Below, one piece after another: positions 15,738 to 53,316 of a stretch of 64,000 bases of DNA. Numbering within the stretch: position 1 is the first letter of the stretch; every line of letters begins with the position of its first letter. Below the pieces are notes generated by a model that was given only the letters and a program-made list of their open reading frames with translations, made no database searches and was not told where the DNA came from. Position numbers and translations under genes: made by a program. Origin of the DNA: Streptomyces sp. NA02950 (lineage in GTDB: Bacteria; Actinomycetota; Actinomycetes; Streptomycetales; Streptomycetaceae); contig NZ_CP054916.1 of the NCBI RefSeq assembly GCF_013364155.1, forward strand, positions 3,716,501 through 3,780,500, in the 5' to 3' direction.

Positions 15738-15739
15738 GC

Positions 15740-32677: not shown

Positions 32678-34645
<1,968 letters not shown>

Positions 34646-36602: not shown

Positions 36603-37216
36603 TCACCGCTGCTGTCGCGAAGCCGCGGTCGTGCATAGGACTCGAGGAGCCCGTCCAGCACCCCGAGTTGATGCTCGGCCGTGGTGGTTTCCGGTGCCAG
36701 AATGGCATCGACCTGGAAGCCCAGCACGACAGCGAAGAGCGTTTCGACGATGTGCTCGTCGCACGTACGGGTGGTGATCTCACCAAGGGCTCTGGCCTGG
36801 AGCAGGCAGCTGCGCATCAGCGCGCGCCACCTGTTCATCGTGGCCTGGTACGCGCGGGACATGCGCGGGTCATACAGGGCACGGTCCCAAAAGGCGATCA
36901 CCACCCGCGCCTCCAGCAGCCGGATGCCGTCGAGCGGCATCAGCTCGTGGCAGAGGCCGCGCAGCCCGGCCATGCCACCGGTGCGGGCCACGGCCGGCTC
37001 GAAGCGTCGCTCGGTGGCGTCACAGGCGTACTGAAAGGCGGCCAGAAGGATCTCGTCCTTGTCCCGGAAGTAGGGCGCGAGTCCTCCGTTCGCGTAGCCT
37101 GCCTCGGCCGCCAGCTCCCGCATGGTCACGGCGGCGAGGCCGCGTCGGCCGATGAGCGTCCAAACCGACTCGATGATCAGACGCCGACGTGCGTCGTGAT
37201 CCACGTGCTTCGGCAT
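36593..37216 (-). CDS. TetR-family transcriptional repressor
   Basis: This 207-residue protein has an N-terminal TetR HTH (IIESVWTLIGRRGLAAVTMR, ELAAEAGYANGGLAPYFRDK, DEILLAAFQYA) followed by an all-helical ligand domain. The Gly-Gly-Leu-Ala-Pro-Tyr-Phe stretch is typical of BetI-like TetR proteins that respond to amines or aldehydes. Its stop overlaps the 3' end of the ALDH gene on the other strand. It lies upstream of, and in the same direction as, a membrane-protein gene and not directly before the amine oxidase. A role controlling ALDH or amine oxidase genes is inferred. Confidence 0.9.
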   Translation of the reverse strand: MPKHVDHDARRRLIIESVWTLIGRRGLAAVTMRELAAEAGYANGGLAPYFRDKDEILLAAFQYACDATERRFEPAVARTGGMAGLRGLCHELMPLDGIRLLEARVVIAFWDRALYDPRMSRAYQATMNRWRALMRSCLLQARALGEITTRTCDEHIVETLFAVVLGFQVDAILAPETTTAEHQLGVLDGLLESYARPRLRDSSGDQT

Positions 37217-37248
37217 GGGGTCGTTCTCCGTTCCGGCGACTTCCTCGG

Positions 37249-37758
37249 TCACACGAGCATGGCCGTCATGCTGAGGATCATGAGCGTTCCGCCCGCGTGC
37301 CGGCACGCCCGTGCCCCGCTCATCGACGGGCGTCGTATTACTGGATCTCGGGGGCGGCCCCGCAGGGAGCGGAACATGACCGCGCCGGCTCTGGCAGTGG
37401 TCCACAGAACAAGGATCAGTACCGCCGGCCCCGCGCCCGGCCTACAGGAGGTGGCCAAGACGTGTGTATGTGCTCCGTGAGGGGAGGGGCCGAGCGTCAT
37501 GAGTGCCATGAGAAGCGTCATCGCGCCCAGGTCGATCACCTCGGTCCAACCCCGGTGGTGAGCCAACGCGCAGACGGCGCTCCAGGCGCATCCGAGCGCC
37601 GTGACCCAGGCACCGGTCACCGGTCGGCCCCCCGTCATCAGGGCCATGCCGCTCAATGCCGCGAGGTGGGGCCCCCACCGGTGGACGGTCCCGGGCAGGC
37701 GGCCGGCCAGGCAGAGGAGCGCCCCCGCCAGGCCGGCCAGCGACAGCACCTCACTCAT
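37249..37758 (-). CDS. small integral membrane protein, unknown function
   Basis: The 169-residue protein has about five hydrophobic segments ([83 protein letters not shown]). Between two of them lies a His-rich loop (PSPHGAHTH) that could bind a metal. Its start overlaps the end of the copper amine oxidase gene (ATG at 37758, oxidase stop at 37751), so the two are probably co-transcribed. A link to copper delivery is a guess from this context. It loosely resembles DUF5134-type proteins, but I would not assign the family. Confidence 0.7.
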
Positions 37759-39691
37759 GGCCACCGTCGCTGCAGCAGCGCGAGGCCGCGGCGGTCCGGG
37801 GGACGTCCAGCGTGGGGTTGCGATCGAAAAAGCCGACGGGCTTCAGTTTGAAGCCGGTGTAGTCGACCGGCATGATCGGCCAGTCCTCCAGCCGGGGGGC
37901 GTGGGTGAGACCGAAGGTGTGCCAGACGACCAGGGACCGTCCGTCGATGTCCCGGTCGGCCGCGGCGTAGGCGGGCAATCCGGCACCGCCGGGGTGCTGG
38001 TTGACGAAGTCGCCGGCGGGGTACCGCTCGGCAGGGTCGTAGGCGGTCACCCACAGATGCTTCGTGGCGAAAGCGGCCCGCGAGGCGATCGATGACTCGG
38101 GATCGGCGAGCAGCGACGGCTTGCCTTCGGGATGCAGCACGTAACCGACGGGCTTGCCCAGGACGTTGAGCGAGTGAGGATTCGTGATATGCCACACCCG
38201 GTCGACCGACATGTCTGTGGTGCGCTGCGCCCCGCTCTCCCGGGTCAGGGGCGTGCGGCGGTACGTGAAGGCGTTGCCGCGGGGGTTCTCCGGTCCCATC
38301 GGGACGCGTACGACGTCGACCTCCTCGACCCGGTTGGTCGTTCCGTCGAGCGCCATGTCCAGGCGGGCGCAGAACAGGTGCTGATGATAGGGGGCCCCCA
38401 GTCCGGGGGCGATCTCGGTGGCGTAGGGATAGTCCCCTCCCGGATGCGCCGAGGTGAAGACGACGCCGGTTGCCTTGGCCTCGAATTCGACGGTGCCATC
38501 GAGGTAGAGGTACCAGAAGAAGCCGTAGTCGTAGTTGCCGATGGTGGTGAAGAAGGAGAGCACCATACGCCGCTGGCGGCGGGTCTCGTTCGATTGCGCC
38601 CACAGGTCGGTGTGCTTCCACAGGACGCCATAGTCCTCTTCGTGCAAACACACGGCGTTGGGCAGGGTGCGCGGGTGGCCCAACTCGTCGGCGATGACCG
38701 CGTCGAGGTACGTGATGTCGCCGAGACAGTCGCATCCGAGTCGCAGGGCGTTGGCCGAGCGGCCGATCAGGTACTCCCCCGTATCGAAGTAGTTCTGCCA
38801 CGAGCGCACGGGGGAGGGGTCGGCATAGGGCACGACCATCTCGGCGATCGAGGCGCGGTGGATGATCGGGCGGTTGCGGCCCTTGTCCCGGTCATGGAAG
38901 GCAAGCTGGTGCAGAACCAGGCCCTCCCGAGCGTCGAAGCCGATGCGCAGCGACCAGTTCTCCCACGTGAGGAGGTTGCCCTGGAGGGTGAAGCTGGGGC
39001 CTTCGGGCTGGGTGATCTCGATGGGTTTCTGCGTGGTGCGGGCGGAGCCGGTGACCTCGGGGTCGTCGAAGTTCCCGGAGCCGGTGGGCACCGGGACCGG
39101 GCCGAGGTCGACGACCCGGTCGACGGTGCGGTTGAGGACGTCGACGTATCCGACCAATCCGTCGACGGGACGGGCCCAGGCGTGGTCCGTGTCGTGTTCC
39201 TGGACGAAGGCCAGCCCGCGCAGGATGCGGCGCCCTGCCTCCTCCGGGTACTCATCGGCATAGACTCCGGCAGAGAGAGGGGCGACCCGCACCCGTGCCA
39301 CTTCCAGGCCCCGGCTCTTCAGTGCGGCGAGCCACCGAGCGTCCTGGGCCAGGATCTCTTCGACGAGGTCGAACTCCTCTTCCAAAACCGGAAGTTGGCC
39401 GTCCTTCGCGGCGTCCAGCGTACGGCGTGCGACGATGTCCCGCCGGCTCAGGGAGACGACGAGGTCCTGACCAGGCGCCCGGCCCGAGGTGTCGTGCAGC
39501 TGGACTCGCACCCGCCGGTCCACGGGGTCACCGTCCACACAGGCGAGCAGGACGTTTTTAGTGGGTTCTTCGAGGCCCACGTAGACGAAACGTGAGGTGT
39601 CGGACAGCACTCCGGCCCGGTCCAGCACCGAGCGGACAGCGGTGATCTCATCTGCGGTAAGAGGGGTCAAGGGGTGTACCGCGGTGGTCAT
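37751..39691 (-). CDS. copper-containing primary amine oxidase
   Basis: A 646-residue topaquinone enzyme of the tyramine/phenylethylamine oxidase type. The TPQ tyrosine is Tyr387 in [12 protein letters not shown], the copper ligands are His436 and His438 ([11 protein letters not shown]) and His597 ([14 protein letters not shown]), and the catalytic base is Asp303 in YFDTGEY. It converts R-CH2-NH2 to the aldehyde plus NH3 and H2O2. No signal peptide is visible, so it is cytoplasmic like Arthrobacter-type enzymes. An ATG preceded by GGAGGG is used as the start. The divergent AraC gene at 40163 recalls the FeaR/TynA arrangement. A second, clearly different amine oxidase is encoded at 55896. Confidence 0.94.
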
Positions 39692-39712
39692 GTGTCCCTC
39701 CAGGGGTGCTTT

Positions 39713-39728: not shown

Positions 39729-40162
39729 GAAAAAAAGTGGACGATCGGGGTGCTTCCTGGTCCGGAAGCACCCCTCGCGAGGACGTCGCCGCTCAGACGG
39801 AGGCAGGCACGCCTTATACGGGTCTTAGGGCCGGTTGTCGGCGGCGTCCCGTGTGGTCCGCGCCGGGTAAGGCCGAGGATGACTCCGCCGAGCGCGGGGC
39901 ACGGTGTGGGCCGGGTCCCTCGCCTCTCTCGCCGAGGGCCAGGACAGTGAAGGGCAGCCGCACCCTGGGGCGTGTCTCGCCAGCCTGGTGCTGAGTACTG
40001 TGCGCTCGTTGCGCACGAAAAAGGTGCGGTGGGGTGCACTCGAAGTCACCGTTGCATGCACGGCATCCTCCGGACAGGTGGAGTGATGCAACATTCAAGA
40101 AATTCACGGCGGGCTCACGGGAGCTATCGTCAGCGGAAGACCTCTACCGGGTGGAGCGCAGC

Positions 40163-41116
40163 ATGCGGACGATCATCACCACTGAGTCAGTGGCCCAGGC
40201 AGATCGGTTCGACCACTGGGTGTATGAGATGTCCCAGGTATTCGCCGGTCTCGACACCCGGCCCGTGTCCAAGGGCCCGTTCCAGGGGATCGCTGCGCGC
40301 GGCTCGGTCGGCTCGGTGCAACTGAACTCCATCAGCGCGGGGCCTCTGCGAGTCCGTCGCACCGCACGGCTGTGCGCCCAGTACGAGGAGGACTACTACA
40401 AGGTCGCCCTCCAGATATCGGGCACCTCGGTGGTGGAGCAGGGCGGCGCACAGACGGCGCTGGGTCCCGGGGACATCGCTATCTGCGATGCGGCGCGTCC
40501 GTATTCCTTCACGTACGTCGGCGACTTTCGCACTGTGATCCTGCTGCTCCCGCGGCCCCTGCTGCCCCTGCGCCCCGAGGCCGTGTCGGAGGTCACTGCA
40601 CATCGGATCTCAACCGACGAGGGGGTCGGCGCGGTGGTGGCCCCCTTCCTGCAGTCGCTGGGCGAGCAGGATCGCGATTTCGTGGGGCCGGCGGCCCACA
40701 GTCTCATGGACGGCACGGTGTCCCTGCTCACCGCCCTGGTCATGGAGCGCCTGGACCGGGCCGCGCCGCACGACGCGATGATGCTCCGCATCCGGGCCTA
40801 CATCGAGCACCGGCTCGCCGATCCGGAGCTCTCGCCGGACACGATCGCCGAGGCCCACGGCATCTCGCGGCGGTATCTGTTCAAGCTGTTCGCCGCCGAG
40901 GGCACAACCGTCGCCGGCTGGATCCGGACCCGACGCCTGGAGCACTGCGCCCGCGATCTGGCGAACTCAGATGCAGCCGACCAGCCCATCGGCATGGTCG
41001 CGACCCGTTGGGGACTGCTGGACCACCGGCACTTCAGCCGGGTATTCAAGTCCGTGTACGGCGAAACGCCGAGGGAGTTCCGGCGCCGGGCTTTGGTCGA
41101 CGTCACCGGAGAGTGA
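40163..41116 (+). CDS. AraC-family regulator (FeaR-like)
   Basis: The 317-residue protein has an N-terminal AraC-binding-like domain (VAQADRFDHWVYEMSQVFAG, YKVALQISGTSVVEQGGAQT, GDIAICDAARPYSFTYVGDF). A C-terminal double HTH follows (ADPELSPDTIAEAHGISRRY, LFKLFAAEGTTVAGWIRTRR, GMVATRWGLLDHRHFSRVFK). E. coli FeaR has the same layout and activates its amine oxidase and aldehyde dehydrogenase genes. This gene is divergent from a copper amine oxidase, so an equivalent role is likely. The ATG at 40163 follows GTGGAG; the frame extends upstream but without domain sequence. Confidence 0.9.
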   Translation: MRTIITTESVAQADRFDHWVYEMSQVFAGLDTRPVSKGPFQGIAARGSVGSVQLNSISAGPLRVRRTARLCAQYEEDYYKVALQISGTSVVEQGGAQTALGPGDIAICDAARPYSFTYVGDFRTVILLLPRPLLPLRPEAVSEVTAHRISTDEGVGAVVAPFLQSLGEQDRDFVGPAAHSLMDGTVSLLTALVMERLDRAAPHDAMMLRIRAYIEHRLADPELSPDTIAEAHGISRRYLFKLFAAEGTTVAGWIRTRRLEHCARDLANSDAADQPIGMVATRWGLLDHRHFSRVFKSVYGETPREFRRRALVDVTGE

Positions 41117-41508: not shown

Positions 41509-43101
41509 ATGCCCGATCCCCTCACCGACGAGTCCACCTGCCCCACAGCGACCAGGAACGGAGCCCAGGCGCTTATCGAGACCGCCTCCGCCGGAGGCGT
41601 CGAAGTGTGCTTCGCCAACCCCGGAACGACGGAGATGCCGTTGGTGACCGCGCTCGACAAAGTGCCCGCCATCCGTCCGGTACTGGGGTTGTTCGAGGGG
41701 GTGTGCACCGGGGCGGCGGACGGCTACGCCCGCATCGCCGGCAAGCCCGCCATGACCCTTCTCCACCTGGGGCCGGGCTTCGCCAACGGCATCGCGAACC
41801 TGCACAACGCCCGGCGGGCCCACTCGCCGGTCCTCAACGTCGTGGGTGATCATGCCAGTTGGCACCTCCCCTACGACGCTCCGCTGACAAGCGACATCCA
41901 ATCGCTGGCAACCCCGGTGTCCGGCTGGGTCGGTACCGTGGAATCGGCCGCGCACACAAGCCGGGCGACCGTCGAGGCCCTCGCGGCCGCGCGGACGCCC
42001 CCCGGCTGTGGTGCCACACTGATCGTCCCGGCCGACTTCCAGCAGGAGACGTTCGGCGAGCCGCTGACCGCCGTACCGCCGCCCCCCGGTCCCGGCCGTG
42101 TTGTTCCGGCCACGGTGGATGGGATCGCCGAGAAAGTTCGCCGGAGCAAGCACACGGTGGTGCTGCTCGGGGCGGGTGGGCTGACCGAGCGGGGACAGCG
42201 TGCGGCTCAGCGAATCGCGCGAGCGACCGGCGCCACCCTGTACAGCGAGACGTTCCCGGCGGCGGCCGAGCGTGGGGGCGGCCTTCCAGACCTCGACCGG
42301 CTGCCATACTTCCCGGAAGCCGCGATCAAGGCGCTGGCCGATGCAGAAACGGTGGTGCTCGCCGGGGCCCTGGAACCGGTCGCCTACTTCGGATACTCAA
42401 ATATGCCCAGCTTGCTGGCGCCACCTGGCACGGTCCGGGTGCTCGCCGAGCCGGGTGAGGACGCCGCTCAGGCGTTGGAGGAGCTGGCCACCGCGCTCGG
42501 CGCGCCGCTCGCGTCGTCGGACCGCCGACCGGACCTGCCGGATCGTTCCTTGCCCACTGGCCGGCTCGATCCTGCCGCGATCGGCCGGATCGTCGCGACC
42601 CTGCTACCCGACAACGCGATTGTCTCCGTCGAGGGTGGCACCTGTGGCTACCCCTTCTTCACCGCCTCGGCGCACGCCGCCCGGCACACCACTTTGACGA
42701 ACACCGGCGGTGCGATCGGCCAGGGGCTGCCCGCAGCTTTGGGGGCGGCGGTCGCAGCCCCCGACCGCCGGGTGATCGCCCTGCAATCGGACGGCAGCGC
42801 CCAATACACAATCCAGGCCCTGTGGACCATGGCACGCGAGCAGGTCTCCGTGGTCACGCTCATCGCCTCCAACCGCCGGTACGGCATCCTGCGCACGGAG
42901 CTGGGTCGGCACGGCGGCAGCGCCACGGGATCCGCGTCCGCCGCCCTGACAAGCCTGGACGACCCGGCCTTGGACTGGCCGGCGCTGGCCGCGGGGTACG
43001 GAGTCCCGGCCCAGCGTGCCGAGAGCGGCATCGAACTCATCGACGCACTGACCCGGGCCCTGGTCGAGGACGGCCCCCAGCTCATCGAGATGGTCCTGTG
43101 A
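41509..43101 (+). CDS. ThDP-dependent decarboxylase/acetolactate synthase-like enzyme
   Basis: The 530-residue protein has all three ThDP-enzyme domains. The pyrimidine domain holds VCFANPGTTEMPLVTALDKV and the activating Glu in LGLFEGVCTGAADGYARIAG. The central domain holds TVVLLGAGGLTERGQRAAQR. The pyrophosphate domain holds TNTGGAIGQGLPAALGAAVA, LQSDGSAQYTIQALWTM and SNRRYGILRTELG. It resembles benzoylformate decarboxylase and acetolactate-synthase-like proteins from aromatic catabolic clusters. Decarboxylation of an aryl 2-oxo acid to an aldehyde for the next-encoded ALDH is the best guess. GGGAG precedes the ATG at 41509. A decayed copy lies at 62030-62322. Confidence 0.88.
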   Translation: MPDPLTDESTCPTATRNGAQALIETASAGGVEVCFANPGTTEMPLVTALDKVPAIRPVLGLFEGVCTGAADGYARIAGKPAMTLLHLGPGFANGIANLHNARRAHSPVLNVVGDHASWHLPYDAPLTSDIQSLATPVSGWVGTVESAAHTSRATVEALAAARTPPGCGATLIVPADFQQETFGEPLTAVPPPPGPGRVVPATVDGIAEKVRRSKHTVVLLGAGGLTERGQRAAQRIARATGATLYSETFPAAAERGGGLPDLDRLPYFPEAAIKALADAETVVLAGALEPVAYFGYSNMPSLLAPPGTVRVLAEPGEDAAQALEELATALGAPLASSDRRPDLPDRSLPTGRLDPAAIGRIVATLLPDNAIVSVEGGTCGYPFFTASAHAARHTTLTNTGGAIGQGLPAALGAAVAAPDRRVIALQSDGSAQYTIQALWTMAREQVSVVTLIASNRRYGILRTELGRHGGSATGSASAALTSLDDPALDWPALAAGYGVPAQRAESGIELIDALTRALVEDGPQLIEMVL

Positions 43102-43112
43102 AAGGAGACCCC

Positions 43113-44660
43113 GTGTCCCCCACGGTCCAGCACACACAGTCCGCGTACGACGCTCCCGGCGAGAAGGTGCGGCGTTTCCTGTCCTCACCGCGCGCAATGC
43201 TCATCGGTGGTGCCTGGGTTCCCGCTGTCTCCGGCCACGTCTTCGACTCCGTCGACCCGGCAACCGGCTCGGTCCTTACCCAGGTCCCAGACGGAGACGC
43301 CCAGGATGTCGATCGCGCCGTCACCGCCGCACGCCGCGCCTTCAACGACTCCAACTGGCGACGCATGTCCCCGATGGACCGCGGCCTGCTGCTGCATCGC
43401 ATCGCCGACCTCATCGAGGCGCATGCCGATGAGTTGGCCCTGCTGGAGGCCCGTGACAACGGCAAGCCGGTCTCCGTGGCCCGTTCCGTGGATGTCGGCA
43501 CCAGCATCAAGTTGTTCCGCTACTTCGCCGGCTGGCCCAGCAAGCTGGAGGGCAGCACCATCCCCGTCTCACCACGCGGTGGCCTGCGCGTGCTGAACTA
43601 CACCACGCACCACCCGGTCGGCGTGGTCGGCCTGATCGTGCCGTGGAACTTCCCCATGTCCATGGCCTGTTGGAAGCTGGCCCCGGCCCTCGCCGCCGGC
43701 TGCACGATTGTGCTCAAGCCCGCCGAGGAGACCCCGCTGTCCACCCTGAGGCTGGCGGAAATCCTCAGCGAGGCCGGCGTACCAGACGGAGTGGTGAACG
43801 TGGTCACCGGTCGCGGTGCGACCACCGGAGCGGTCCTGGCCTCGCACGACGGCGTCGACAAGATCGCCTTCACCGGATCCACCGAGACCGGCCGCTTGGT
43901 CGTCCGTGCCGCGGCCGGCAACCTCAAGAAGGTCTCGCTCGAGCTCGGCGGGAAGTCACCGAACATCGTGCTGCCGGACGCCGATCCGGAAGCGGTCGCC
44001 GAGGCCGCCGCCGAGGCCATCTTCTTCAACCAAGGCCAGGTGTGCACCGCGGGATCGCGGCTCTACGTCCATGACGCGCTCTACGACGAGGTACTGGACG
44101 CCGTCTCCGCCCGTGCCGAGCAAATCGTGGTCGGACCGGGCAGCGACCCGGACAGCGAAATGGGGCCCCTGGTCTCGGCGCGGCACCACGCGCGAGTCAC
44201 CGAATACGTCGAGGCCGGTCTGCGACAGGGCGCTCGGCTGACAGCTGGAGGAGGTCGGCCCGACCTGGACGCGGTCTACGCGGACGGATACTTCCTCCGG
44301 CCCACCGTCTTCGCCGACGCCGACCACGGCATGCGGATCGTGCGCGAGGAGATCTTCGGACCCGTGCTCGCCGCCATGCGCTGGAGTGATGTCGACGACC
44401 TCGTCGCCAAGGCGAACGATTCACCCTTCGGACTGTCGGCTGGCATATGGACCTCCGACCTGGGCCATGCCCACCGAATCGCCGACGAACTTCAGGCCGG
44501 CACGGTGTGGATCAACTGCTTCAACCTGACTGATCCCGCATCCCCCTTCGGTGGCTTCAAGCAGTCCGGCTGGGGGCGAGAGATGGGGCGCAAGGTGCTC
44601 GACCTCTACACCGAGGTCAAGAGCGTCTGGGTCAATCTCGACAGAGTTACCGGAGCTTAG
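43113..44660 (+). CDS. NAD(P)-dependent aldehyde dehydrogenase
   Basis: This 515-residue ALDH resembles phenylacetaldehyde/betaine-aldehyde dehydrogenases: GLIVPWNFPMSMACWKLAPA, KIAFTGSTETGRLVVRAAAG, Glu in VSLELGGKSPNIVLPDADPE, Cys in FFNQGQVCTAGSRLYVHDAL, and PFGGFKQSGWGREMGRKVLD. It begins 11 bp after the ThDP-enzyme stop with AAAGGAG, so aldehyde made by that enzyme is a natural substrate. About 25 extra residues precede the fold. A broken ALDH start at 61206 suggests the same gene pair was once present twice. Confidence 0.93.
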   Translation: MSPTVQHTQSAYDAPGEKVRRFLSSPRAMLIGGAWVPAVSGHVFDSVDPATGSVLTQVPDGDAQDVDRAVTAARRAFNDSNWRRMSPMDRGLLLHRIADLIEAHADELALLEARDNGKPVSVARSVDVGTSIKLFRYFAGWPSKLEGSTIPVSPRGGLRVLNYTTHHPVGVVGLIVPWNFPMSMACWKLAPALAAGCTIVLKPAEETPLSTLRLAEILSEAGVPDGVVNVVTGRGATTGAVLASHDGVDKIAFTGSTETGRLVVRAAAGNLKKVSLELGGKSPNIVLPDADPEAVAEAAAEAIFFNQGQVCTAGSRLYVHDALYDEVLDAVSARAEQIVVGPGSDPDSEMGPLVSARHHARVTEYVEAGLRQGARLTAGGGRPDLDAVYADGYFLRPTVFADADHGMRIVREEIFGPVLAAMRWSDVDDLVAKANDSPFGLSAGIWTSDLGHAHRIADELQAGTVWINCFNLTDPASPFGGFKQSGWGREMGRKVLDLYTEVKSVWVNLDRVTGA

Positions 44661-44670
44661 GAGCAATCGT

Positions 44671-45465
44671 ATGAACCTCGAACTCACCGGCCGGGTGGCC
44701 CTCGTCACTGGCGGCAGCCTGGGTATCGGCAAGGCCGTCGCACGCGAGCTGGCCAAGGAGGGCGCCGATGTGGTGATCACCGCCCGGCGGATGGCTCCGT
44801 TGGAAGAGGCCGCCAAGGACATCGAGGCGGAGACCGGCAAGCAAGTGCTGGCCTTGCCCTCGGACACCACCGACTCGGTGTCCGTGCGCAACATGGTGAA
44901 CCATGCCGTCGCCGCTATGGGCCGCCTCGACATCCTCGTCAACGGCGCGGCAGCTCCTTCAGGTCTGGTGCGCAACTCCGTCGAGGAGGCCGACCCCGAG
45001 CTGCTGCTCCAGGACATCAACACGAAGGTCGTGGGCTACTTCCGGTGCGTGCAGGCCGTCACACGGCACATGAAACAGAACGGCTACGGTCGGATCATCA
45101 ACATCGGCGGACTCACCGGCCGTTCCAGTCATGCCCTGTCCGGCATGCGCAACCTCGCCGTGGTTCACATGACCAAGGCCCTCTCCGACCAGCTCGGCCC
45201 GGACGGTATCACCGTCAACACGGTGCACCCTGGCGTGGTCGAGACCGAGCACATCCACGAGTTGTACGAGAAGGAGGCCGTCAAACGCGGCATCACCGCC
45301 GCCGAGGTCGAGGCCGACTACGCCGCCCGCACGCCGATCCGGCGCGTCCTGGAGGCCACCGAGATCGCCGAAATCATCTGCTTTCTCTCCTCGCCCCGGG
45401 CTGCGGCGATCACAGGGGAGTCGATCGGTATCGACGGCGGCCTGACCCGCGGCATCTTCCTCTGA
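44671..45465 (+). CDS. short-chain dehydrogenase/reductase
   Basis: The 264-residue SDR carries TGGSLGIGKAVARELAKEGA, VNGAAAPSG in place of the NNAG motif, IINIGGLTGRSSHALSGM and VNTVHPGVVETEHI. The usual catalytic Tyr-x-x-x-Lys is not evident: after GGLTGRSS the sequence reads MRNLAVVHMTKALSDQ, with Asn/His around the position expected for Tyr and a Lys four residues after HM. So it may be atypical or non-reductive. It lies in the operon between ALDH and the propeller protein. The reaction is unknown. Confidence 0.85.
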   Translation: MNLELTGRVALVTGGSLGIGKAVARELAKEGADVVITARRMAPLEEAAKDIEAETGKQVLALPSDTTDSVSVRNMVNHAVAAMGRLDILVNGAAAPSGLVRNSVEEADPELLLQDINTKVVGYFRCVQAVTRHMKQNGYGRIINIGGLTGRSSHALSGMRNLAVVHMTKALSDQLGPDGITVNTVHPGVVETEHIHELYEKEAVKRGITAAEVEADYAARTPIRRVLEATEIAEIICFLSSPRAAAITGESIGIDGGLTRGIFL

Positions 45466-45501
45466 ACCACACACCCGCTCAACCCAACAGGAGCCACATC
45501 C

Positions 45502-46524
45502 ATGGAAGGAACCATCCTCGTCGCCACCGCCGGGCAAGGGGTACTGCGCAGTTCCGATGACGGCCGCACCTGGCACCGCCTCGGGCTCGGCCAGGACATC
45601 GAGTTCGACGCTGTCGTCCGCTGCCTGGCGGTCCACCCCGGTCGGCCGAACCTCGTCTATGCGGGCGCCGACGCGGGGCTCGTCCGCAGCGTGGACGCCG
45701 GCGCGACCTGGACCCGCGTCGACTCCCCCATGAACGACCAGACGATCTGGTCCCTGGCCGTCGACCCGAACGATCCCGACTTCATCATCGCCGGCACCGG
45801 CGCACCCTCGCGGGCGGCGGTGTTCCGCACCGGTAACGGCGGCACCGACTGGAACCGACTGCCCCCGGAGATACCGGAGTTCTGCTCCGGCGTCAGCAAG
45901 CCCCGCATCCTCACCGCCACTGTCGACCGGTATGACCCCAAGAACCTGTGGTTCGGCATCGAGGAAGGTGGGTTGTGGCGCAGCGGAAACCGCGGTGACG
46001 CATGGACCCGTGTCGACGGCACACCCGCGAGCCTCCCCGACGGTGTCACCAACTCCGACATCCACTGCGTCGTCGTGCTCGAGGGCCCGCCCAAGACGAT
46101 CGTCGTCGTGGTCGTCAACGCGCTGTTCGTCAGCCAGGACGACGGCGCGACCTGGACCCGCACGGACACACGCAAGCAGTGGGGTATCTACTACACCCGC
46201 CTCGTGCAGCAGATCCCGGGCACCAACGAACTCCTACTCGGCATCGGCGATGCCACCCCCGGCACCACCACGAAGATCTTCCGTTCCACCGACCTGGCCA
46301 GGACCTGGCAAGAGTCGTCTCTCGACGTGCCCGCAAACTCCACCGTGTGGGCCTTCGGTGTCCACCCTGCCGACCCCGATCTCGCCTTCGCGGGCACCAA
46401 GTACGGGCACCTCTTCCGCTCAACCGACGCCGGTCGTACCTGGATCAAGGAATGGCGCGAGTTCAGTGAGATCACGGACGTCGCCTGGACCCCCGCCGTT
46501 GCTCCGGCCCCGGAAGGACACTGA
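45502..46524 (+). CDS. BNR/sialidase-type beta-propeller protein, no signal peptide
   Basis: A 340-residue repeat protein with recurring Asp-box units S-x-D-x-G-x-T-W: LRSSDDGRTWHRLG, VRSVDAGATWTRVD, FVSQDDGATWTRTD, FRSTDLARTWQES, LFRSTDAGRTWIKEW, plus eroded ones (FRTGNGGTDWNRLP, RSGNRGDAWTRV). This indicates a six- or seven-bladed propeller. There is no signal peptide, no Arg triad of true sialidases can be recognised, and the fold is usually extracellular, so a cytoplasmic copy inside a catabolic operon is odd. Its stop overlaps the next ATG by one base, so tight co-expression is clear. It might be a scaffold or a lactonase-like enzyme; function is not assigned. Confidence 0.8.
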   Translation: MEGTILVATAGQGVLRSSDDGRTWHRLGLGQDIEFDAVVRCLAVHPGRPNLVYAGADAGLVRSVDAGATWTRVDSPMNDQTIWSLAVDPNDPDFIIAGTGAPSRAAVFRTGNGGTDWNRLPPEIPEFCSGVSKPRILTATVDRYDPKNLWFGIEEGGLWRSGNRGDAWTRVDGTPASLPDGVTNSDIHCVVVLEGPPKTIVVVVVNALFVSQDDGATWTRTDTRKQWGIYYTRLVQQIPGTNELLLGIGDATPGTTTKIFRSTDLARTWQESSLDVPANSTVWAFGVHPADPDLAFAGTKYGHLFRSTDAGRTWIKEWREFSEITDVAWTPAVAPAPEGH

Positions 46525-47087
46525 TGAGCGCCAACCCACACGATGTCAGGGCCCAAGGTGTTGACCCGGACGAGCGGACACTGGAGGAACATCAGGAGCC
46601 GACGCCGCTCCTCGACGAAGCGTCCCGCAGCATCCACCCCCGGGTCATCCGCACCCACCTGTCGTTGTTCGTCCGTGACCCCGAGGCCTCGGCCGTCTGG
46701 TACCAGGACGTGCTCGGCATGGAAGTCACCGCGCGCGGCCCTCAGTGGGTCTTCCTGTCCTTCGGCAAGAAGCACCACGACATCGCGCTCATCCGCGCCG
46801 ACGAGGGCGCGGCATCGGGCGGGGTCGGCCTCCAGCACTACGGGCTGGAGGTCGCCGGCGACCTCGACGAGTGGCGCCGCCTGTACGGAATGCTCCTCAC
46901 CAAGGGCGTGCCCGTCGTCAAGACCACCGACCACAAGGTCGGCTTCGGCCTGTACTTCACCGACCCGGACGGCAACCGTTTCGAGTTCTTCCACGAGACC
47001 GTCACCGACGACGAGGAAGGCAAGCGGATTCTCGGCCTCTACGGAGCTCCCAGCGAACCGCTCGACGTCGAACCCCTGCAAAACTGA
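46524..47087 (+). CDS. VOC-family protein, extradiol dioxygenase-like
   Basis: The 187-residue protein contains one clear VOC unit with candidate metal ligands: His in IRTHLSLFVRDPEASAVWYQ, His in GLQHYGLEVAGDLDEWRRLY, and Glu in FTDPDGNRFEFFHETVTDDE. These are the spacings of type I extradiol dioxygenases and glyoxalase-like enzymes. In this operon, with an MhpA-like hydroxylase and an alpha/beta hydrolase encoded downstream, a ring-cleaving dioxygenase for a catechol is the attractive reading. A lyase or isomerase is possible. It is shorter than classic catechol 2,3-dioxygenases (~300 residues). Confidence 0.82.
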   Translation: MSANPHDVRAQGVDPDERTLEEHQEPTPLLDEASRSIHPRVIRTHLSLFVRDPEASAVWYQDVLGMEVTARGPQWVFLSFGKKHHDIALIRADEGAASGGVGLQHYGLEVAGDLDEWRRLYGMLLTKGVPVVKTTDHKVGFGLYFTDPDGNRFEFFHETVTDDEEGKRILGLYGAPSEPLDVEPLQN

Positions 47088-47123
47088 CCGTTTCCCGCCG
47101 CCTTCCAGCAATTGGAGCACTCC

Positions 47124-47726
47124 ATGCCCGACCCGAACTTCGCCGGATACCACATCCGCAAGTGGTACACCCAGATCGAGGACACCCTCGCCAACGAAAC
47201 CGGAACGCTCGCGGACGGTGAACCGGTTCGGAAGATCGTCATCGCCGCCGCCGTCCACAACCCGTACGCCGGCCGGTTCAGCGAGAACCTGGACTTGATC
47301 ATCGCCGACTCGCCCAAGCTCGGCGAGGAGTTCGGCCGACGGATCACCGAAGTCGCAGCGGGACGGCCGATCGAGAGCTACGGCAAGGCCTGCCTCGTCG
47401 GCACCAACGGCGAGTACGAACACGGAAACGCGTTCCTCACCGCCGTCTTCGCACACCCGGTGCGCGACGCCGTCGGCGGAGGCAAGTCCTGGGTCCCCTC
47501 AACCGGCAAGCGGGGGGCACCGGGCACGGCCATCGACGTACCACTGGCGCACAAGGATGCGCTGTACGTCCGCTCGCACTACGACACGGTCACCTTGACC
47601 TTCACGGACACCCCGGACCCGGACGAGGTCGTCGTCATTTTCGCCTTCGCCACACGTGGCCGGCTGCACGCGCGGCTGGGCGGGATCAAGGCCGACGAGA
47701 TCCAGGGGCAGGACGGGCTGCACTGA
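47124..47726 (+). CDS. amino acid synthesis family protein (DUF1185)
   Basis: The 200-residue protein matches the PF06684/DUF1185 family in composition and landmarks: GTLADGEPVRKIVIAAAVHN, LIIADSPKLGEEFGRRITEV, SYGKACLVGTNGEYEHGNAF and VPLAHKDALYVRSHYDTVTL. Despite the family name its reaction is unknown; members recur in aromatic and heterocycle catabolic clusters. It follows the VOC gene by 36 bp and precedes the hydrolase gene by one base. The ATG at 47124 is preferred over the in-frame one at 47112. Confidence 0.78.
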   Translation: MPDPNFAGYHIRKWYTQIEDTLANETGTLADGEPVRKIVIAAAVHNPYAGRFSENLDLIIADSPKLGEEFGRRITEVAAGRPIESYGKACLVGTNGEYEHGNAFLTAVFAHPVRDAVGGGKSWVPSTGKRGAPGTAIDVPLAHKDALYVRSHYDTVTLTFTDTPDPDEVVVIFAFATRGRLHARLGGIKADEIQGQDGLH

Positions 47727-47727
47727 C

Positions 47728-48594
47728 ATGACCGACGGCATCACCGGCGCCGACCGCTTCACCACGCTGAACGGTCTGCGCGCCCACTACGTCGAGTGGG
47801 GCGAACCGAGCGATCCGGCCATCGTCATGCTGCACGGCCTGCGCAGCTATGCACGTACCTTCGACTCGCTGGCCGCCCATCTGGCGAGGCGCCACCGAGT
47901 CGTGGCCCTGGACGCTCGCGGCCGCGGCGACAGCGCCTGGGACCCGAACGGGGACTACTACACCCCGGCATACGTCAGCGACCTCGAACAGTTCGCCGAC
48001 CGGCTCAGGCTGGACCGCTTCGTTCTTCTAGGTCATTCCATGGGCGGCGCCACCGCATACGTATATGCGGCCCGCCACCCCGAGCGCGTCAAGGCAGCGA
48101 TCATCGAAGACATCGGTCCGGGCTCGTCGCTCACGGGGGCCGGCGCCGAGCGCATCCGACGCGAGGTGGCCGACACTCCGAACGAGTTCCCCTCCCTGGA
48201 CGCGGCACGCGCGTACTGGCGAAGTATCCGGCCCGGCATCACCACCGAAGCACTGGAATCCCGTCTCCGCCACACTTTGCGGCCGGGCACCTACGGCCGA
48301 CAGCTCTGGAAGTTCGATATCGCCGGCATCGCCGCTGCGCGTCTCAACCGCGACCCGGCCCGCCAAGTCGACCTCTGGCCCAGCGTCGAGGCTGTGCGCT
48401 GCCCAACCTTGGTCGTCCGCGGCAGTACCTCCGACTTCCTCCCCGCCGCCACCGCCTTCGAGATGAGCGCACGCAACCCTCTCATCCAGACGGTGGAAAT
48501 CCCGGGCGCCGGCCATTACGTCCACGACGACGCGTCCGACGCCTTCCGTCACACGATCGAACTGTTCCTTGCCAGCCTGGAGACCGCCGCATGA
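47728..48594 (+). CDS. alpha/beta hydrolase
   Basis: A 288-residue hydrolase: oxyanion region VMLHGLRSYARTFDSLAAHL, nucleophile elbow VLLGHSMGGATAYVYAARHP (Ser in GHSMGG), acid in VVRGSTSDFLPAATAFEM, and His in EIPGAGHYVHDDASDAF, so the triad is complete. It could act as a meta-cleavage-product hydrolase (MhpC-like) or as an esterase/lactonase. Its stop overlaps the FAD monooxygenase start (ATGA), and hydroxylase plus hydrolase pairs are the rule in phenylpropionate-type pathways. The start is one base after the previous stop. Confidence 0.88.
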   Translation: MTDGITGADRFTTLNGLRAHYVEWGEPSDPAIVMLHGLRSYARTFDSLAAHLARRHRVVALDARGRGDSAWDPNGDYYTPAYVSDLEQFADRLRLDRFVLLGHSMGGATAYVYAARHPERVKAAIIEDIGPGSSLTGAGAERIRREVADTPNEFPSLDAARAYWRSIRPGITTEALESRLRHTLRPGTYGRQLWKFDIAGIAAARLNRDPARQVDLWPSVEAVRCPTLVVRGSTSDFLPAATAFEMSARNPLIQTVEIPGAGHYVHDDASDAFRHTIELFLASLETAA

Positions 48595-50228
48595 GCGCAT
48601 CCACCGAAATCCGCACACAGGTGGCGATCGTCGGTGCCGGACCGTGCGGCACCACAGTCGCCAACTACCTGGGGCTGTACGGGATCGAGACCCTGCTCAT
48701 CGACCGCAGCACCGACATCGTCGAATACCCCCGCGCCGTTGGCATGGACGACGAGAGCCTGCGCAGCTTCCAGGGCATCGGCCTTGCCGACGACATGCTT
48801 GCCGACATGCTCCAGAACATCCCGCTGAAGATGTTCGGGGCGGACGGCCGCTGCTTTGCCCATATCCGGCCCTCCACCCGGGAGTTCGGCTGGCCACGGC
48901 GCAACATGTTCATGCAGCAGCTCGCTGAGGGCACGTTGCGCAAAGGGCTTGAACGCTACCCGCAGGTGCGCCCACTCTATGGGCACGAACTCGTTCGGCT
49001 GGAGCAGGACGGCAACGAAGTACGCCTGCATGTCACGGGGCCCGACGGCGAGAAGGTGCTCGTCCGCGCCGAGTACGTGGTCGCCGCCGATGGGGGACGC
49101 AGTACGATCCGCACCCAGTTGGGCATCCCCTTGGTCGGCGACACCCACCCGCGCAAGTGGGTAGTGATCGAGTGCGACAACGACCCGCTGGACGCCCCCT
49201 ACACCGGTCTGCACTGCGACCCGAAACGGCCATACGTCTGTCTGGACCTGCCCTACAACCACCGCCGTTGGGAGTTCATGCTCTTCCCCGGTGAGGACGC
49301 CGAGGGCATGATCCAGCCGGACGGAGTGCGCGAGCTGCTCACCGGCCACGTGCCGGACCCGGCTGCCCTCAACATCATCCGAGCCAGGGTCTACACCCAT
49401 CACTCCCGTGTGGCGAGCCGCTTCGTGGAGGGCCGGATATGCCTCGTAGGAGACGCCGCCCATCTCATGCCGCCATGGGCCGGCCAGGGCCTTAACACCG
49501 GGATCCGCGACGCCACCAACGTGGCCTGGAAACTGGCCGCCGCGGTCACCGGACGCGCACACCCCCGAATCCTCTCCACCTACGACACCGAGCGACGCGA
49601 GCACGCCCGAGCAATGGTGGACCTGTCCGATACCTTGGGCAAGGTTCTGTCCCCGACGAACAGCTGGCTGGCGCGCACTCGCGACGCCCTGCTGCACAGC
49701 CTCACCGTCGCGCCCCCCGTACGCGACTGGCTCCTGCAGATGCGCTTCAAGCCGATGCCCCTGTACCGCCAGGGAATCGTACTGCACCACGGGCAGAAGG
49801 ACGCGCAGAAGACCTCGGTGGGACGCATGCTGATCCAGCCGAAGGTCGAGGCCGCCGACGGGCAGACCGCCCTGCTGGACGAGACGCTTGGCAAGTGGTT
49901 CGCACTCGTCGGCTACGGCACCGACCCGCTCGTCCATCTCGACCCTGGTTCCCGTGCCTTTTGGGACAGCATCGGCACGCACTACGTGAGCGTGGTGGAA
50001 TCCCGCTCCGGCCGCGCATCCGGCCAGCGTCTCGACTCCGGCACCGACACGCTGGTGGTGGAGGACATCGACGGCTCGCTCCGCGACTGGTTCGCGCAGC
50101 AGCCGGGCACGGTCGCCGTGATCCGCCCCGACCGTTACGTGGCAGCGGTGACCGAGCCCCTCGGGCTCACCTCTGCCACGGCCGACCTGGAACGGTTGCT
50201 CGCCCCCCGCATGCGAGGTGCGTCGTGA
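48591..50228 (+). CDS. MhpA-like FAD-dependent aromatic hydroxylase
   Basis: The 545-residue class A flavoprotein monooxygenase has the GxGxxG dinucleotide motif VAIVGAGPCGTTVANYLGLY, the DG motif YVVAADGGRSTIRTQLGIPL and the GD motif RICLVGDAAHLMPPWAGQGL, then NTGIRDATNVAWKLAAAVTG. It resembles 3-(3-hydroxyphenyl)propionate hydroxylase (MhpA), including the C-terminal thioredoxin-like extension. It would ortho-hydroxylate a phenolic substrate with NAD(P)H and O2, making a catechol for the VOC dioxygenase. The start overlaps the hydrolase stop by four bases, and its own stop overlaps the NIPSNAP gene (GTGA). Confidence 0.92.
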   Translation: MSASTEIRTQVAIVGAGPCGTTVANYLGLYGIETLLIDRSTDIVEYPRAVGMDDESLRSFQGIGLADDMLADMLQNIPLKMFGADGRCFAHIRPSTREFGWPRRNMFMQQLAEGTLRKGLERYPQVRPLYGHELVRLEQDGNEVRLHVTGPDGEKVLVRAEYVVAADGGRSTIRTQLGIPLVGDTHPRKWVVIECDNDPLDAPYTGLHCDPKRPYVCLDLPYNHRRWEFMLFPGEDAEGMIQPDGVRELLTGHVPDPAALNIIRARVYTHHSRVASRFVEGRICLVGDAAHLMPPWAGQGLNTGIRDATNVAWKLAAAVTGRAHPRILSTYDTERREHARAMVDLSDTLGKVLSPTNSWLARTRDALLHSLTVAPPVRDWLLQMRFKPMPLYRQGIVLHHGQKDAQKTSVGRMLIQPKVEAADGQTALLDETLGKWFALVGYGTDPLVHLDPGSRAFWDSIGTHYVSVVESRSGRASGQRLDSGTDTLVVEDIDGSLRDWFAQQPGTVAVIRPDRYVAAVTEPLGLTSATADLERLLAPRMRGAS

Positions 50229-50530
50229 TCGTCGAGGAACGCGAGTACCTGCTCAAGCCGGGCGCGACAGCCCGGTACACCCGCCTCTGGGCGCAGTTCG
50301 GCCGCGAACCGCAGACCCGCATCCTCGGTGATCTGCTCGGCTTCTACACAACGGAGACCGGCGAGCTCAACACGCTGATCTACCTCTGGCGCTACGACAG
50401 TCACGAGGACCGGGCGCGAAAACGTGCCGAACTCGCCTCCGACGCTGACTTCGCCGTTTTCCGCAGCCAGGTCAGGGACCTGCTCGTCCGCCAGTCGAGC
50501 CGCATCCTCACACCGGCACTACCGACCTGA
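50225..50530 (+). CDS. NIPSNAP-family small protein
   Basis: The 101-residue protein starts VIVEEREYLLKPGATARYTR and contains GDLLGFYTTETGELNTLIYL, WRYDSHEDRARKR, the NIPSNAP alpha/beta-barrel pattern. Such proteins occur as accessories in aromatic degradation operons; no catalytic role is established. It is the last gene of the plus-strand operon, translationally coupled to the hydroxylase through a GTGA overlap. The next genes to the right converge on it. Confidence 0.85.
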   Translation: MIVEEREYLLKPGATARYTRLWAQFGREPQTRILGDLLGFYTTETGELNTLIYLWRYDSHEDRARKRAELASDADFAVFRSQVRDLLVRQSSRILTPALPT

Positions 50531-50633
50531 ATCACCTCATTCCCCGGTCAGAGCCGTGGCCGCCGTGGTGACAGCCCCTGCGGCCACGGCGTCCAGGCAG
50601 ACTGCCATCTGACGTGGAAGAAGCCGGGAGAAT

Positions 50634-50800
50634 GACCGAGTCGATCGCGCACCGCGACCAGTCCAGCTCCCCGCGCGAGCCAAGCTCGTCCAGTACCCGA
50701 CGGTCCAGCTTCGCCCAGACCCGGGCGGCACTCCACTCGGTGAAACGTCGGTGCGCGGTCGGCCCCGACGGACCGAAGACCGGCGGCAACCGCCACCACG
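50634..50800 (-). pseudogene. IS5-family transposase, N-terminal fragment
   Basis: WWRLPPVFGPSGPTAHRRFT, then EWSAARVWAKLDRRVLDELG and DWSRCAIDSV match the helix-turn-helix N-terminal part of IS5-group transposases. Similarity ends at IDSV. The fragment is in frame with the MaoC remnant upstream, producing one chimeric open frame of 154 residues (50532-50996) that is not a real gene. It marks an insertion/deletion that removed the MaoC C-terminus. Confidence 0.75.
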
Positions 50801-50816
50801 TGCAGCCGGAGGTGGC

Positions 50817-51234
50817 GACGATGCCCTCGCCCGGCCGGGTGGCCGAAAGGCGTTTGAAGGCGATCGTGGTCTCTGCATGCAGGGTGTCCCCGACGATCAC
50901 GGGGGCGTTGAGCCCGACGTTGTCCCAGCCGAGGTTGGCGACGGCCTTCTGACTGATGGTCTTCACCGTCATTCCGCTCACGATCCCGAAGGTCACCAGG
51001 CTGGAGACGAGTGGCTTCTTGAACGGGGTACCGGACGCGTAGACGTCATCGATGTGCAGCGGATGCTGGTTGAGGCAGAGCAGTGAACTCCAGATGTCGT
51101 CCGTGGCGGTGATCGTGCGGCCGGGCTGGTGCTCAGAGACGTGGCCGACGACGTAGTCCTCATAGGACAGGCCGTCGTCCTCACGGGCGTCCAGGTTCCG
51201 GTTCGACGTAGGAGGCCGGGGCCGCGCCGGTCAT
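50817..51234 (-). pseudogene. MaoC-like dehydratase, frameshifted and truncated
   Basis: DGLSYEDYVVGHVSEHQPGR, ITATDDIWSSLLCLNQHPLH (with the hot-dog Asp/His pair region), LVTFGIVSGMTVKTISQKAV and NVGLNAPVIVGDTLHAETTI are MaoC enoyl-CoA hydratase sequence. From the ATG at 51234 the frame stops after SYVEPEPGRP, and the MaoC body continues in another frame, so one base has been gained or lost near 51195. The C-terminus is replaced by IS5 sequence. It once followed another leftward gene, since its ATG overlaps that fragment's TGA. Confidence 0.75.
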
Positions 51235-52627: not shown

Positions 52628-53260
52628 TCACCCCTGGCCGGCGGCCTCCGCTCTGGCCGATACGAGCAATGTCGAGAATCGCGCCAGCCGGGCACCCTGG
52701 AAACGGGCGCAGTTCAGGGTGGTTTCGTCGGGCGGCGTCGAGGGGAATCCGGCTGGCCACGATGTCCCGTAGGGGTTTCCGCCTGCGGCATACACAATGT
52801 CATCCGTGTAGCCAAGCGGAACGATGACGGCTCCCCAGTGGTAGAAGACGTTGTTCAACGACAGGATCGTCGACTCCTGGCCTCCGTGCTGCTCAGCGGA
52901 CGACACGAAGGCCGTCACCGGCTTGTCCGCCAGTTTGCCCTCCTGCCACAGACTGCCGGCCGAGTCGATGAACTGCTTGAGCTGTGCCGCCGGTGCCCCA
53001 TAGCGCGTGGGCGTTCCGAACGCGTATCCGTCTGCCCATTCGAGATCGTCGAGCGTTGCCGCGTTGACGACAGAGTCGGTGTCCGCACGATGCTGGGCCC
53101 ATGCAGGATTGGAGACTACGGCTTCGGCGGGCGCGAGTTCGGCTACCCTTCGGAGTCGGACTTCGGCACCCGCGGATTCTGCTCCTTCCGCAACCGCCTC
53201 CGCGAGACGGTAGACAGATCCGGTAGCGCTGTAGTAGGCGACCAACACTCGTGTCGGCAT
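52628..53260 (-). CDS. WrbA/flavodoxin-type NAD(P)H:quinone oxidoreductase
   Basis: The 210-residue protein begins TRVLVAYYSATGSVYRLAEA (FMN phosphate loop), has WADGYAFGTPTRYGAPAAQL and FVSSAEQHGGQESTILSLNN. These are the WrbA signatures for FMN binding and two-electron quinone reduction. It would keep (hydro)quinones or catechols reduced. The ATG at 53260 has a perfect AAGGAG. An ALDH gene lies 56 bp upstream in the same direction, so the two are probably one unit controlled from the 54817-55041 region. Confidence 0.9.
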   Translation of the reverse strand: MPTRVLVAYYSATGSVYRLAEAVAEGAESAGAEVRLRRVAELAPAEAVVSNPAWAQHRADTDSVVNAATLDDLEWADGYAFGTPTRYGAPAAQLKQFIDSAGSLWQEGKLADKPVTAFVSSAEQHGGQESTILSLNNVFYHWGAVIVPLGYTDDIVYAAGGNPYGTSWPAGFPSTPPDETTLNCARFQGARLARFSTLLVSARAEAAGQG

Positions 53261-53316
53261 GAAAACTCCTTCTCGATGAGCACTGCTTGACAACGGGGAA
53301 GGCGTCGACTGCCCTC

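Follow-up and report, generated by a model that had tools for sequence, protein, structure and literature searches.

A predicted nine-gene operon

In Streptomyces sp. NA02950 we examined a 64,000-nucleotide stretch of contig NZ_CP054916.1 (the window; all positions are counted from its first letter), in which nine open reading frames (ORFs) on the plus strand fill positions 41509–50530. All nine are present, and the coordinates given for them in an initial annotation are correct. The first encodes a thiamine diphosphate (ThDP)-dependent decarboxylase or lyase that resembles benzoylformate decarboxylase (41509–43101; PRK07586, 702 bits, cut-off 363). It is followed by a phenylacetaldehyde-dehydrogenase-like aldehyde dehydrogenase (ALDH; 43113–44660), which scores 655 bits with the StyD model without reaching its cut-off of 850 and is 45% identical to Escherichia coli FeaB, and by a divergent short-chain dehydrogenase/reductase (SDR) that lacks the catalytic YxxxK (44671–45465; PF13561). 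A beta-propeller of the BNR/sortilin type (45502–46524; PF15902, 69 bits, cut-off 33) precedes a single-domain vicinal oxygen chelate (VOC) protein with conserved active-site residues and an extradiol motif, a probable extradiol ring-cleavage dioxygenase (46524–47087). The remaining genes encode a DUF1185 or AA_synth protein (47124–47726; PF06684, 1.9e-67), an alpha/beta hydrolase (47728–48594; PF00561), an MhpA-type FAD phenol hydroxylase (48591–50228; PRK06183.1-5, 760 bits, cut-off 546) and a NIPSNAP-family protein (50225–50530; PF07978, 7e-22). In Pfam terms, the nine products belong in order to the TPP enzyme, Aldedh, adh_short, BNR/Sortilin-type propeller, Glyoxalase/VOC, PF06684, Abhydrolase, FAD_binding_3 and NIPSNAP families; among the NCBIfam models, PRK07586 and the MhpA-like model exceed their cut-offs and the StyD-like model falls below its own.

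The genes are closely packed. An 11-nt gap that contains AAGGAG separates the ThDP and ALDH genes, with 10 nt between ALDH and SDR and 36 nt between SDR and propeller. The propeller and VOC genes overlap by 1 nt (TGATG); 36 nt then precede the DUF1185 gene and 1 nt the hydrolase gene, and the last two junctions are 4-nt overlaps (ATGA into the hydroxylase gene and GTGA into the NIPSNAP gene). These distances take 43113, 47124, 47728, 48591 and 50225 as the probable starts of the ALDH, DUF1185, hydrolase, hydroxylase and NIPSNAP genes. Because all eight junctions lie between a 4-nt overlap and a 36-nt gap, they form the pattern expected for one transcription unit. Domain matches and the reading of the junctions thus bear out the gene set, the families and the overlapping starts and stops described initially, and the nine genes are probably a conserved catabolic operon, as predicted from sequence.

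Conservation in two phyla

To locate related loci we used the propeller, the least expected member of the operon, as bait. The best 120 of its 1105 relatives in the database are 58–87% identical, and a scan of genome contigs with the propeller alone gave 125 confirmed loci. The best 80 of these were kept for gene-content counts and searched by tblastn with all nine operon proteins, counting forward-strand matches within 12 kb of the propeller at identity thresholds of 55% for the ALDH, 50% for the SDR, 45% for the hydroxylase, 38% for NIPSNAP and 40% for the others. Near the propeller, DUF1185 was found in 79 of the 80 loci, the hydrolase in 78, VOC in 70, the hydroxylase in 69, the SDR in 68, the ThDP enzyme in 67, NIPSNAP in 54 and an operon-type ALDH (at least 55% identity) in 24, although the 80 include many close kin (Burkholderia, Streptomyces) and are not 80 independent observations. 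The co-occurrence is far above chance.

Gene order was read in the 69 loci whose flanks extend 5 kb or more upstream and 5.5 kb or more downstream, the other 11 having too little flank. A core of ThDP enzyme, SDR, propeller, VOC, DUF1185, hydrolase and hydroxylase is whole in 61 of them (21/22 actinobacterial and 40/47 proteobacterial); of the other eight, one lacks DUF1185 and the hydrolase, one holds propeller, VOC, DUF1185 and hydrolase, and six hold propeller, DUF1185 and hydrolase only. The order is fixed except that NIPSNAP stands ahead of the hydroxylase gene in 18 loci and that the hydroxylase–NIPSNAP pair lies upstream in two mycobacterial loci. The conserved synteny suggested as a check in the initial annotation is therefore found for seven genes in two phyla, with NIPSNAP and the ALDH not universal.

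The operon is patchily spread and common to Actinomycetota and Pseudomonadota. It is rare in Streptomyces (3/295 genomes at 1e-60, the host genome counted), whereas identity between the phyla is high (58–73% for VOC and 59–78% for DUF1185), a combination that suggests horizontal spread between phyla. An annotated copy of the cluster occurs in Burkholderia pyrrocinia, the sole one among four plasmid-search records opened; the Variovorax and Novosphingobium plasmid records bear no annotation.

Some loci depart from this layout. In L083, L085, L092 and L096, propeller, DUF1185 and hydrolase genes without hydroxylase, VOC or ThDP genes lie beside gene groups of the glutathione S-transferase (GST), cyclase (PF04199), TctC and GntR types. 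Two Novosphingobium loci (L134 and L135) carry two propeller–VOC pairs about 13 kb apart, one of them with DUF1185, hydrolase, ThDP and SDR genes. A sulfatase-family gene lies 3' of the hydroxylase gene in L057, L061 and L072 (Achromobacter, Pigmentiphaga and a related metagenome-assembled genome); it is annotated in L072 and L057, below specific NCBIfam cut-offs, and may hint at sulfated substrates in these three loci.

Candidate enzymes for ring hydroxylation and cleavage

The hydroxylase is 43.7% identical to E. coli MhpA over 529 aligned positions and 46.5% identical to a Klebsiella MhpA that lies within an mhp operon. For VOC and the other proteins, residue conservation was counted in sets of matches that share 38% identity or more across 60% or more of the query; the sets include the window, up to four plasmid loci and many close relatives. 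In VOC, His45, His85, His105, His137, Tyr144 and Glu154 are present in 75/75 sequences; by the residue spacing of homoprotocatechuate 2,3-dioxygenase, we take His45, His105 and Glu154 to be the ligands and His137 and Tyr144 to be second-sphere residues. The extradiol motif pattern matches 72/75 sequences and 0/20000 shuffles. The protein has 187 residues and one Glyoxalase domain, without the two-domain architecture of HpaD and catechol 2,3-dioxygenase; single-domain extradiol enzymes do exist. Its AlphaFold model has a pLDDT of 79.8 and a low-confidence N-terminus. On these residues VOC is a probable extradiol ring-cleavage dioxygenase, a point that the fold alone leaves undecided. Each of seven carrier genomes searched holds one close VOC match, with further ones at most weak.

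In the alpha/beta hydrolase the triad Ser105, Asp237 and His264 is present in 83/83 sequences. Its best Protein Data Bank (PDB) match is 3BWX, followed by 3KXP, alpha-(N-acetylaminomethylene)succinic acid hydrolase.

The ThDP enzyme and the atypical members

Benzoylformate decarboxylases make up the top 48 of the 60 PDB matches listed for the ThDP enzyme (best 1.7e-38), and Glu42, His86 and His115 are conserved in 68/68 sequences. The NCBIfam benzoylformate decarboxylase model itself gives 192 against a cut-off of 493, PRK07586 being the best model. The NCBI label of ordinary acetolactate synthase was rejected, as no central TPP_enzyme_M domain was found in the protein and its nearest solved relatives are benzoylformate decarboxylases.

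Initially labelled an SDR, the third product does belong to that fold family by PF13561, and Gly14, Gly18 and Gly20 are invariant; the catalytic Tyr–Lys pair is missing. When aligned to three control SDRs of the window, 0/73 sequences have Tyr or Lys at the catalytic columns, where all 73 instead carry SGxRN and seem to be some three residues shorter. YxxxK occurs anywhere in only 1/73 sequences (L109, upstream of the site) and in 3/3 controls. Without this pair the protein is probably not an ordinary dehydrogenase, although a residue displaced from elsewhere could still serve catalysis.

The propeller was modelled by AlphaFold2 with a mean pLDDT of 92.5. Its best Foldseek match is 3b7f, a putative BNR glycosyl hydrolase (TMq 0.77), followed by GH74 enzymes, and its N-terminus, read by eye, is unlike a signal peptide; the protein is apparently cytosolic. 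Although the modelled fold is GH74/BNR-like, we reject an assignment as glycosyl hydrolase or sialidase that would follow from the label alone.

In DUF1185, conservation reaches 97% or higher at 75 positions (n = 84), and 2QTP and 3BYQ are solved relatives. PMC2954203 places conserved Glu90, His93 and Arg176 of published DUF1185 structures at the C-terminal dimer interface; by analogy, these may correspond to Glu101, His104 and Arg188 here. Members of this family have precedents in ring-opening catabolism: PMC7913881 describes HcdD of 7-hydroxycoumarin degradation as a DUF1185 protein of unknown reaction and also names TgnF of Acinetobacter. The initial view that DUF1185, the propeller and NIPSNAP have no established place in such chemistry hence needs amending for DUF1185; for the propeller and NIPSNAP we found no role described. 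DUF1185 occurs in 23 of 396 Actinomycetota genomes (the host's own counted), 21 of them above cut-off. In the other actinobacterial DUF1185 stretches, which are short, the remaining operon genes were not seen, bar three isolated matches, so DUF1185 alone is not diagnostic. Three other actinobacterial genomes have tandem DUF1185 genes (L003/L024, L006/L025 and L017/L026).

Amine-side genes flank the operon

Upstream of the operon lie a copper amine oxidase gene (CAO1; 37754–39706, minus strand; PF01179, 1e-152; PRK11504 above cut-off), whose best PDB match is a phenylethylamine oxidase at 908 bits, and a plus-strand gene for a FeaR-like AraC-family regulator (40160–41116; PRK09685 FeaR, 198.4 bits against a cut-off of 199; 27% identical to E. 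coli FeaR). Downstream are genes for a WrbA-type NAD(P)H:quinone oxidoreductase (52628–53272, minus; PRK03767, 172.9 bits, cut-off 141), a second phenylacetaldehyde-dehydrogenase-like ALDH (ALDH2; 53317–54816, minus; 700 bits with the StyD-Rhodo model, cut-off 800 not reached), an IclR-family regulator (55042–55767, plus; PF09339) and a second copper amine oxidase (CAO2; 55896–57848, minus; PF01179, 4e-158; best PDB match phenylethylamine oxidase, 548 bits). A CMD-family gene (61571–62011, minus; PF02627) has a homologue near the operon in 11/24 actinobacterial loci; in relatives it sits just 3' of the operon, but in the window it is 11 kb away.

Many of these neighbours recur. Among the 24 actinobacterial loci, a copper amine oxidase is present at 18 (CAO1 and CAO2 matches pooled; CAO2 at 15), ALDH2 copies of 66–83% identity at 17 (the operon ALDH excluded), the IclR regulator at 15 (at least 40% identity) and the quinone oxidoreductase at 12. 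Two further recurrent neighbours went undetected in the window: an amino-acid-permease-family gene (15 loci) and a DSBA-like gene (10 loci). Neighbour gene calls were GC-based, with some genes missed or misplaced (antisense calls in places), and recurrent neighbour groups were annotated through representatives only.

Proteobacterial copies have other neighbours. Near the operon, Herbaspirillum locus L076 has an amino-acid-permease-family gene, and L095 has a gene for an AraC-family protein (sharing 32% identity with the FeaR-like regulator of the window), a class-III aminotransferase gene and a StyD-like ALDH gene below the model cut-off. In Novosphingobium, a glutamine synthetase (GS)-like gene adjoins the second propeller–VOC pair of L134, and GATase and P450 genes adjoin that of L135. 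L055 and L109 each have a succinate-semialdehyde dehydrogenase (SSADH)-type ALDH that exceeds the TIGR01780 cut-off, one is annotated as such in B. pyrrocinia, and a TonB receptor and porins adjoin the Burkholderia copies.

With copper amine oxidases, FeaR- and IclR-type regulators, ALDH2 and a quinone reductase at its flanks, the operon likely receives an arylalkylamine. Our main argument for an amine input, a circumstantial one, is that varied amine-deaminating chemistries lie beside one core. The functional unit exceeds the nine genes, whose coordinates as first given were right: it spans about 37.7–57.8 kb and perhaps extends to 62.0 kb.

Other features of the window lie nearby. Directly after the operon, a minus-strand ORF (50532–50996) combines weak MaoC-like and weak IS4/5-type transposase (DUF4096) pieces, both below Pfam cut-offs, and may be a decayed insertion. 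Beside CAO1, positions 32678–37405 hold an acyl-CoA-synthetase-like ORF, a third ALDH gene (ALDH3) and a TetR regulator gene; homologues of ALDH3 and TetR (at least 40%) each occur at 1/24 actinobacterial loci. Further upstream (about 10500–28500), ORF starts resemble oxidoreductases, a ketosynthase, SDRs, an acyl carrier protein and a SARP-type regulator, similar to a type II polyketide cluster.

Search for a classical lower pathway

The host genome is rated 100% complete, and homology searches of it with E. coli MhpD, TIGR03220, PF07836 (the DmpG communication domain) and HpaI were empty; TIGR03217 gave weak matches only, below cut-off, as in all 14 control genomes. Searches of a Janthinobacterium carrier genome (G402) with PF07836, MhpD and HpaI were likewise empty. 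The usual lower meta-cleavage route thus seems to be missing from the host, as judged by homology.

Comparison with known systems

With the E. coli mhp system (MhpA–MhpB–MhpC–MhpD–MhpF–MhpE) the operon shares the likeness of its hydroxylase to MhpA, a hydrolase distantly like MhpC (24%) and the logic of hydroxylation, extradiol cleavage and hydrolysis. It differs in having VOC instead of an MhpB-type (type II) dioxygenase, and MhpD, MhpE and MhpF are not among the nine genes; E. coli MhpB had no BLAST match at 1e-5 among the 12 window proteins compared, a search that was not genome-wide. The homoprotocatechuate (hpa) pathway, which ends in succinate semialdehyde, has a similar extradiol-type active site, and the proteobacterial copies examined have an SSADH-type ALDH. 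Here, however, VOC is single-domain, HpaI was not found in the host and the HpaD model matches only VOC in that genome (29 bits against a cut-off of 321). Both mhp and hpa thus have one or more defining features that the gene set lacks. The E. coli fea/tyn system (TynA–FeaB–FeaR) is resembled by CAO1 (30% to TynA), the FeaB-like ALDH and the FeaR-like regulator, but here these are linked to an operon for ring hydroxylation and probably ring cleavage.

Flavonoid and coumarin clusters are the other relatives. The fde genes of Herbaspirillum seropedicae and the ifc genes of Variovorax likewise encode an FAD monooxygenase together with a ring-cleaving protein of the glyoxalase type, and ifc also has an alpha/beta hydrolase, according to PMC11069340; this likeness is by description. 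They differ by the cupins of ifc (PMC11069340) and the Rieske carrier of fde (PMC8552027), and the accessible parts of these papers name no ThDP enzyme, DUF1185, propeller or NIPSNAP protein. Because no cupin or Rieske gene is among the annotated flanking proteins, membership of fde/ifc was set aside, with the FdeC sequence not compared. In the hcd cluster of Pseudomonas mandelii 7HK4, which degrades 7-hydroxycoumarin, the hydroxylase HcdA, dioxygenase HcdB, putative hydrolase HcdC and DUF1185 protein HcdD have counterparts here; the alcohol dehydrogenase HcdE, cupin HcdF and FMN reductase HcdG set it apart, and neither a propeller nor a ThDP enzyme is named in the accessible part of PMC7913881.

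The initial statement that the set matches no known pathway agrees with our full-text search, which found no characterised counterpart in open-licence papers; the accessible parts of PMC4440368, PMC11303751 and PMC13181038 name no matching gene set.

Proposed route and alternatives

From the observed gene content, conservation, active-site residues, neighbourhood and empty host searches, we infer the reactions, substrates and step order of a possible route. With moderate confidence, we propose a patchily distributed, two-phylum catabolic operon for phenolic arylalkylamines with a non-canonical ThDP/ALDH lower route. Copper amine oxidase would first convert the amine to an arylacetaldehyde-type aldehyde, a step possibly replaced in other bacteria by a class-III aminotransferase or by gamma-glutamylation, and the phenylacetaldehyde-dehydrogenase-like ALDH would oxidize the aldehyde to the acid. 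The MhpA-type hydroxylase would then form a catechol, the single-domain VOC would cleave the ring in extradiol fashion and the alpha/beta hydrolase would split the ring-fission product, perhaps assisted by DUF1185 in a tautomerase-like role. In the sixth step, the resulting 2-oxo acid would bypass the usual hydratase and aldolase: the ThDP enzyme would decarboxylate it to an aldehyde for oxidation by an ALDH (of the SSADH type in the proteobacterial copies examined). Given that hydratase and aldolase were undetected in the host, the ThDP enzyme may act on the ring-fission product rather than first. The substrate and the sixth step are the weakest links of the scheme, which gives no step to the propeller, the SDR or NIPSNAP.

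Several observations weigh against this route. The top-ranked Foldseek neighbours of VOC are FosB and FosA, with glyoxalases mixed in and homoprotocatechuate dioxygenase appearing from rank 10. Ten of the 56 proteobacterial loci have propeller and DUF1185 only, plus the hydrolase in nine (some are short contigs), and neither hydroxylase nor NIPSNAP was seen in the two Novosphingobium stretches; these loci indicate that the core does not require hydroxylation. On the amine side, no copper amine oxidase was seen at 6/24 actinobacterial loci (L034 and L054 have short contig ends), and none of the 56 proteobacterial loci matched the window's copper amine oxidase queries. The window yielded no identifiable SSADH-type gene, and the SSADH-like ALDH of Novosphingobium L134 falls below the TIGR01780 cut-off. 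Absence of the classical lower pathway is not general among carriers: DmpG-domain matches accompany MhpD-type genes in G396, G400 and G401, HpaI-type aldolases are above cut-off in G398 and G399, and some MhpD-family match is present in 6/8 carrier genomes searched. Nor do the 14 control genomes prove the sensitivity of the searches (PF07836 0/14; TIGR03217 above cut-off 0/14; TIGR03220 only in Caulobacter), as E. coli falls below the TIGR03217 cut-off although K-12 holds mhpD and mhpE. More useful as a control, homologues did turn up in other carriers when these were searched with MhpD and PF07836 in the same way; a divergent hydratase or aldolase is possible despite the empty searches.

We advance more tentatively, and at less than even confidence, a stronger form of the proposal, in which propeller, DUF1185, hydrolase, Tyr–Lys-less SDR, ThDP enzyme and NIPSNAP would be the dedicated set of a new aromatic lower pathway without hydratase and aldolase, acting on the ring-fission product of a catechol derived from an arylalkylamine. 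The propeller and the SDR-fold protein would then be new catabolic enzymes or a scaffold. The propeller, DUF1185 and hydrolase would form a reusable module, because this trio is also found without the rest beside the GST, cyclase-like and TctC genes of the Reyranella-type loci.

The strongest competitor, which we consider rather unlikely, places the ThDP enzyme in the upper pathway, close to the scheme first put forward for these genes. An aryl 2-oxo acid, which could arise through a mandelate if the source is a beta-hydroxylated amine (octopamine, for example) or through an arylpyruvate if it is an aromatic amino acid, would be decarboxylated to an aryl aldehyde and oxidized by the adjacent ALDH before hydroxylation and ring cleavage. 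The benzoylformate decarboxylases closest to the ThDP enzyme among solved structures fit this order, as do the two phenylacetaldehyde-dehydrogenase-like ALDHs of the window and the position of the operon-type ALDH, which directly follows the ThDP gene in all 23 full-flank loci that have it (21 actinobacterial, 2 Paraburkholderia). The other 39 full-flank proteobacterial loci with the ThDP gene, however, have ThDP and SDR genes without such an ALDH in between. Furthermore, the SDR, which would be needed as a mandelate-type dehydrogenase, lacks Tyr–Lys; the annotated window proteins include neither an aminotransferase nor an amino-acid decarboxylase; and the ring-fission 2-oxo acid would be left without a detected enzyme in the host. 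ThDP-first and ThDP-last orders are not separable by sequence. Of the original scheme, the hydroxylase, the probable extradiol dioxygenase and the hydrolase are retained, whereas an aryl 2-oxo acid need not be the only input, given the flanking amine genes, and the ThDP enzyme need not act first.

It is less probable still that the operon is a peripheral arylalkylamine route feeding a classical meta pathway encoded elsewhere, with propeller, DUF1185, SDR and NIPSNAP as helpers. An MhpA-like hydroxylase, an extradiol-type enzyme and a hydrolase are the usual meta-pathway trio, and five carriers have DmpG-domain and MhpD-type genes (G396, G400 and G401) or HpaI-type aldolases (G398 and G399); the host genome, rated 100% complete and without MhpD, TIGR03220, PF07836 or HpaI matches, and G402, without MhpD, PF07836 or HpaI, argue against it. 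Least likely, and improbable in our view, is that the target of hydroxylase and VOC is no simple phenol but, for instance, a ring of the flavonoid or coumarin kind, as in fde, ifc and hcd, with the amine genes as independent neighbours: the FdeE/FdeC and IfcA/IfcB pairs (PMC11069340), HcdD (PMC7913881) and the TonB receptor and porins of Burkholderia would fit, but the annotated flanks hold no cupin or Rieske gene, the seven carriers have only one close VOC match each and amine-oxidase genes recur at 18/24 actinobacterial loci.

Implications

If the proposed arylalkylamine route with its ThDP/ALDH lower branch is true, it would give a setting to DUF1185, to a family of BNR propellers that bear glycosyl hydrolase or sialidase labels and are apparently cytosolic, and to a branch of SDRs without Tyr–Lys, and it would represent ring cleavage of the meta type that dispenses with the usual hydratase and aldolase. 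Because the operon is common to Actinomycetota and Pseudomonadota, it may matter in the turnover of plant or animal aromatic amines.

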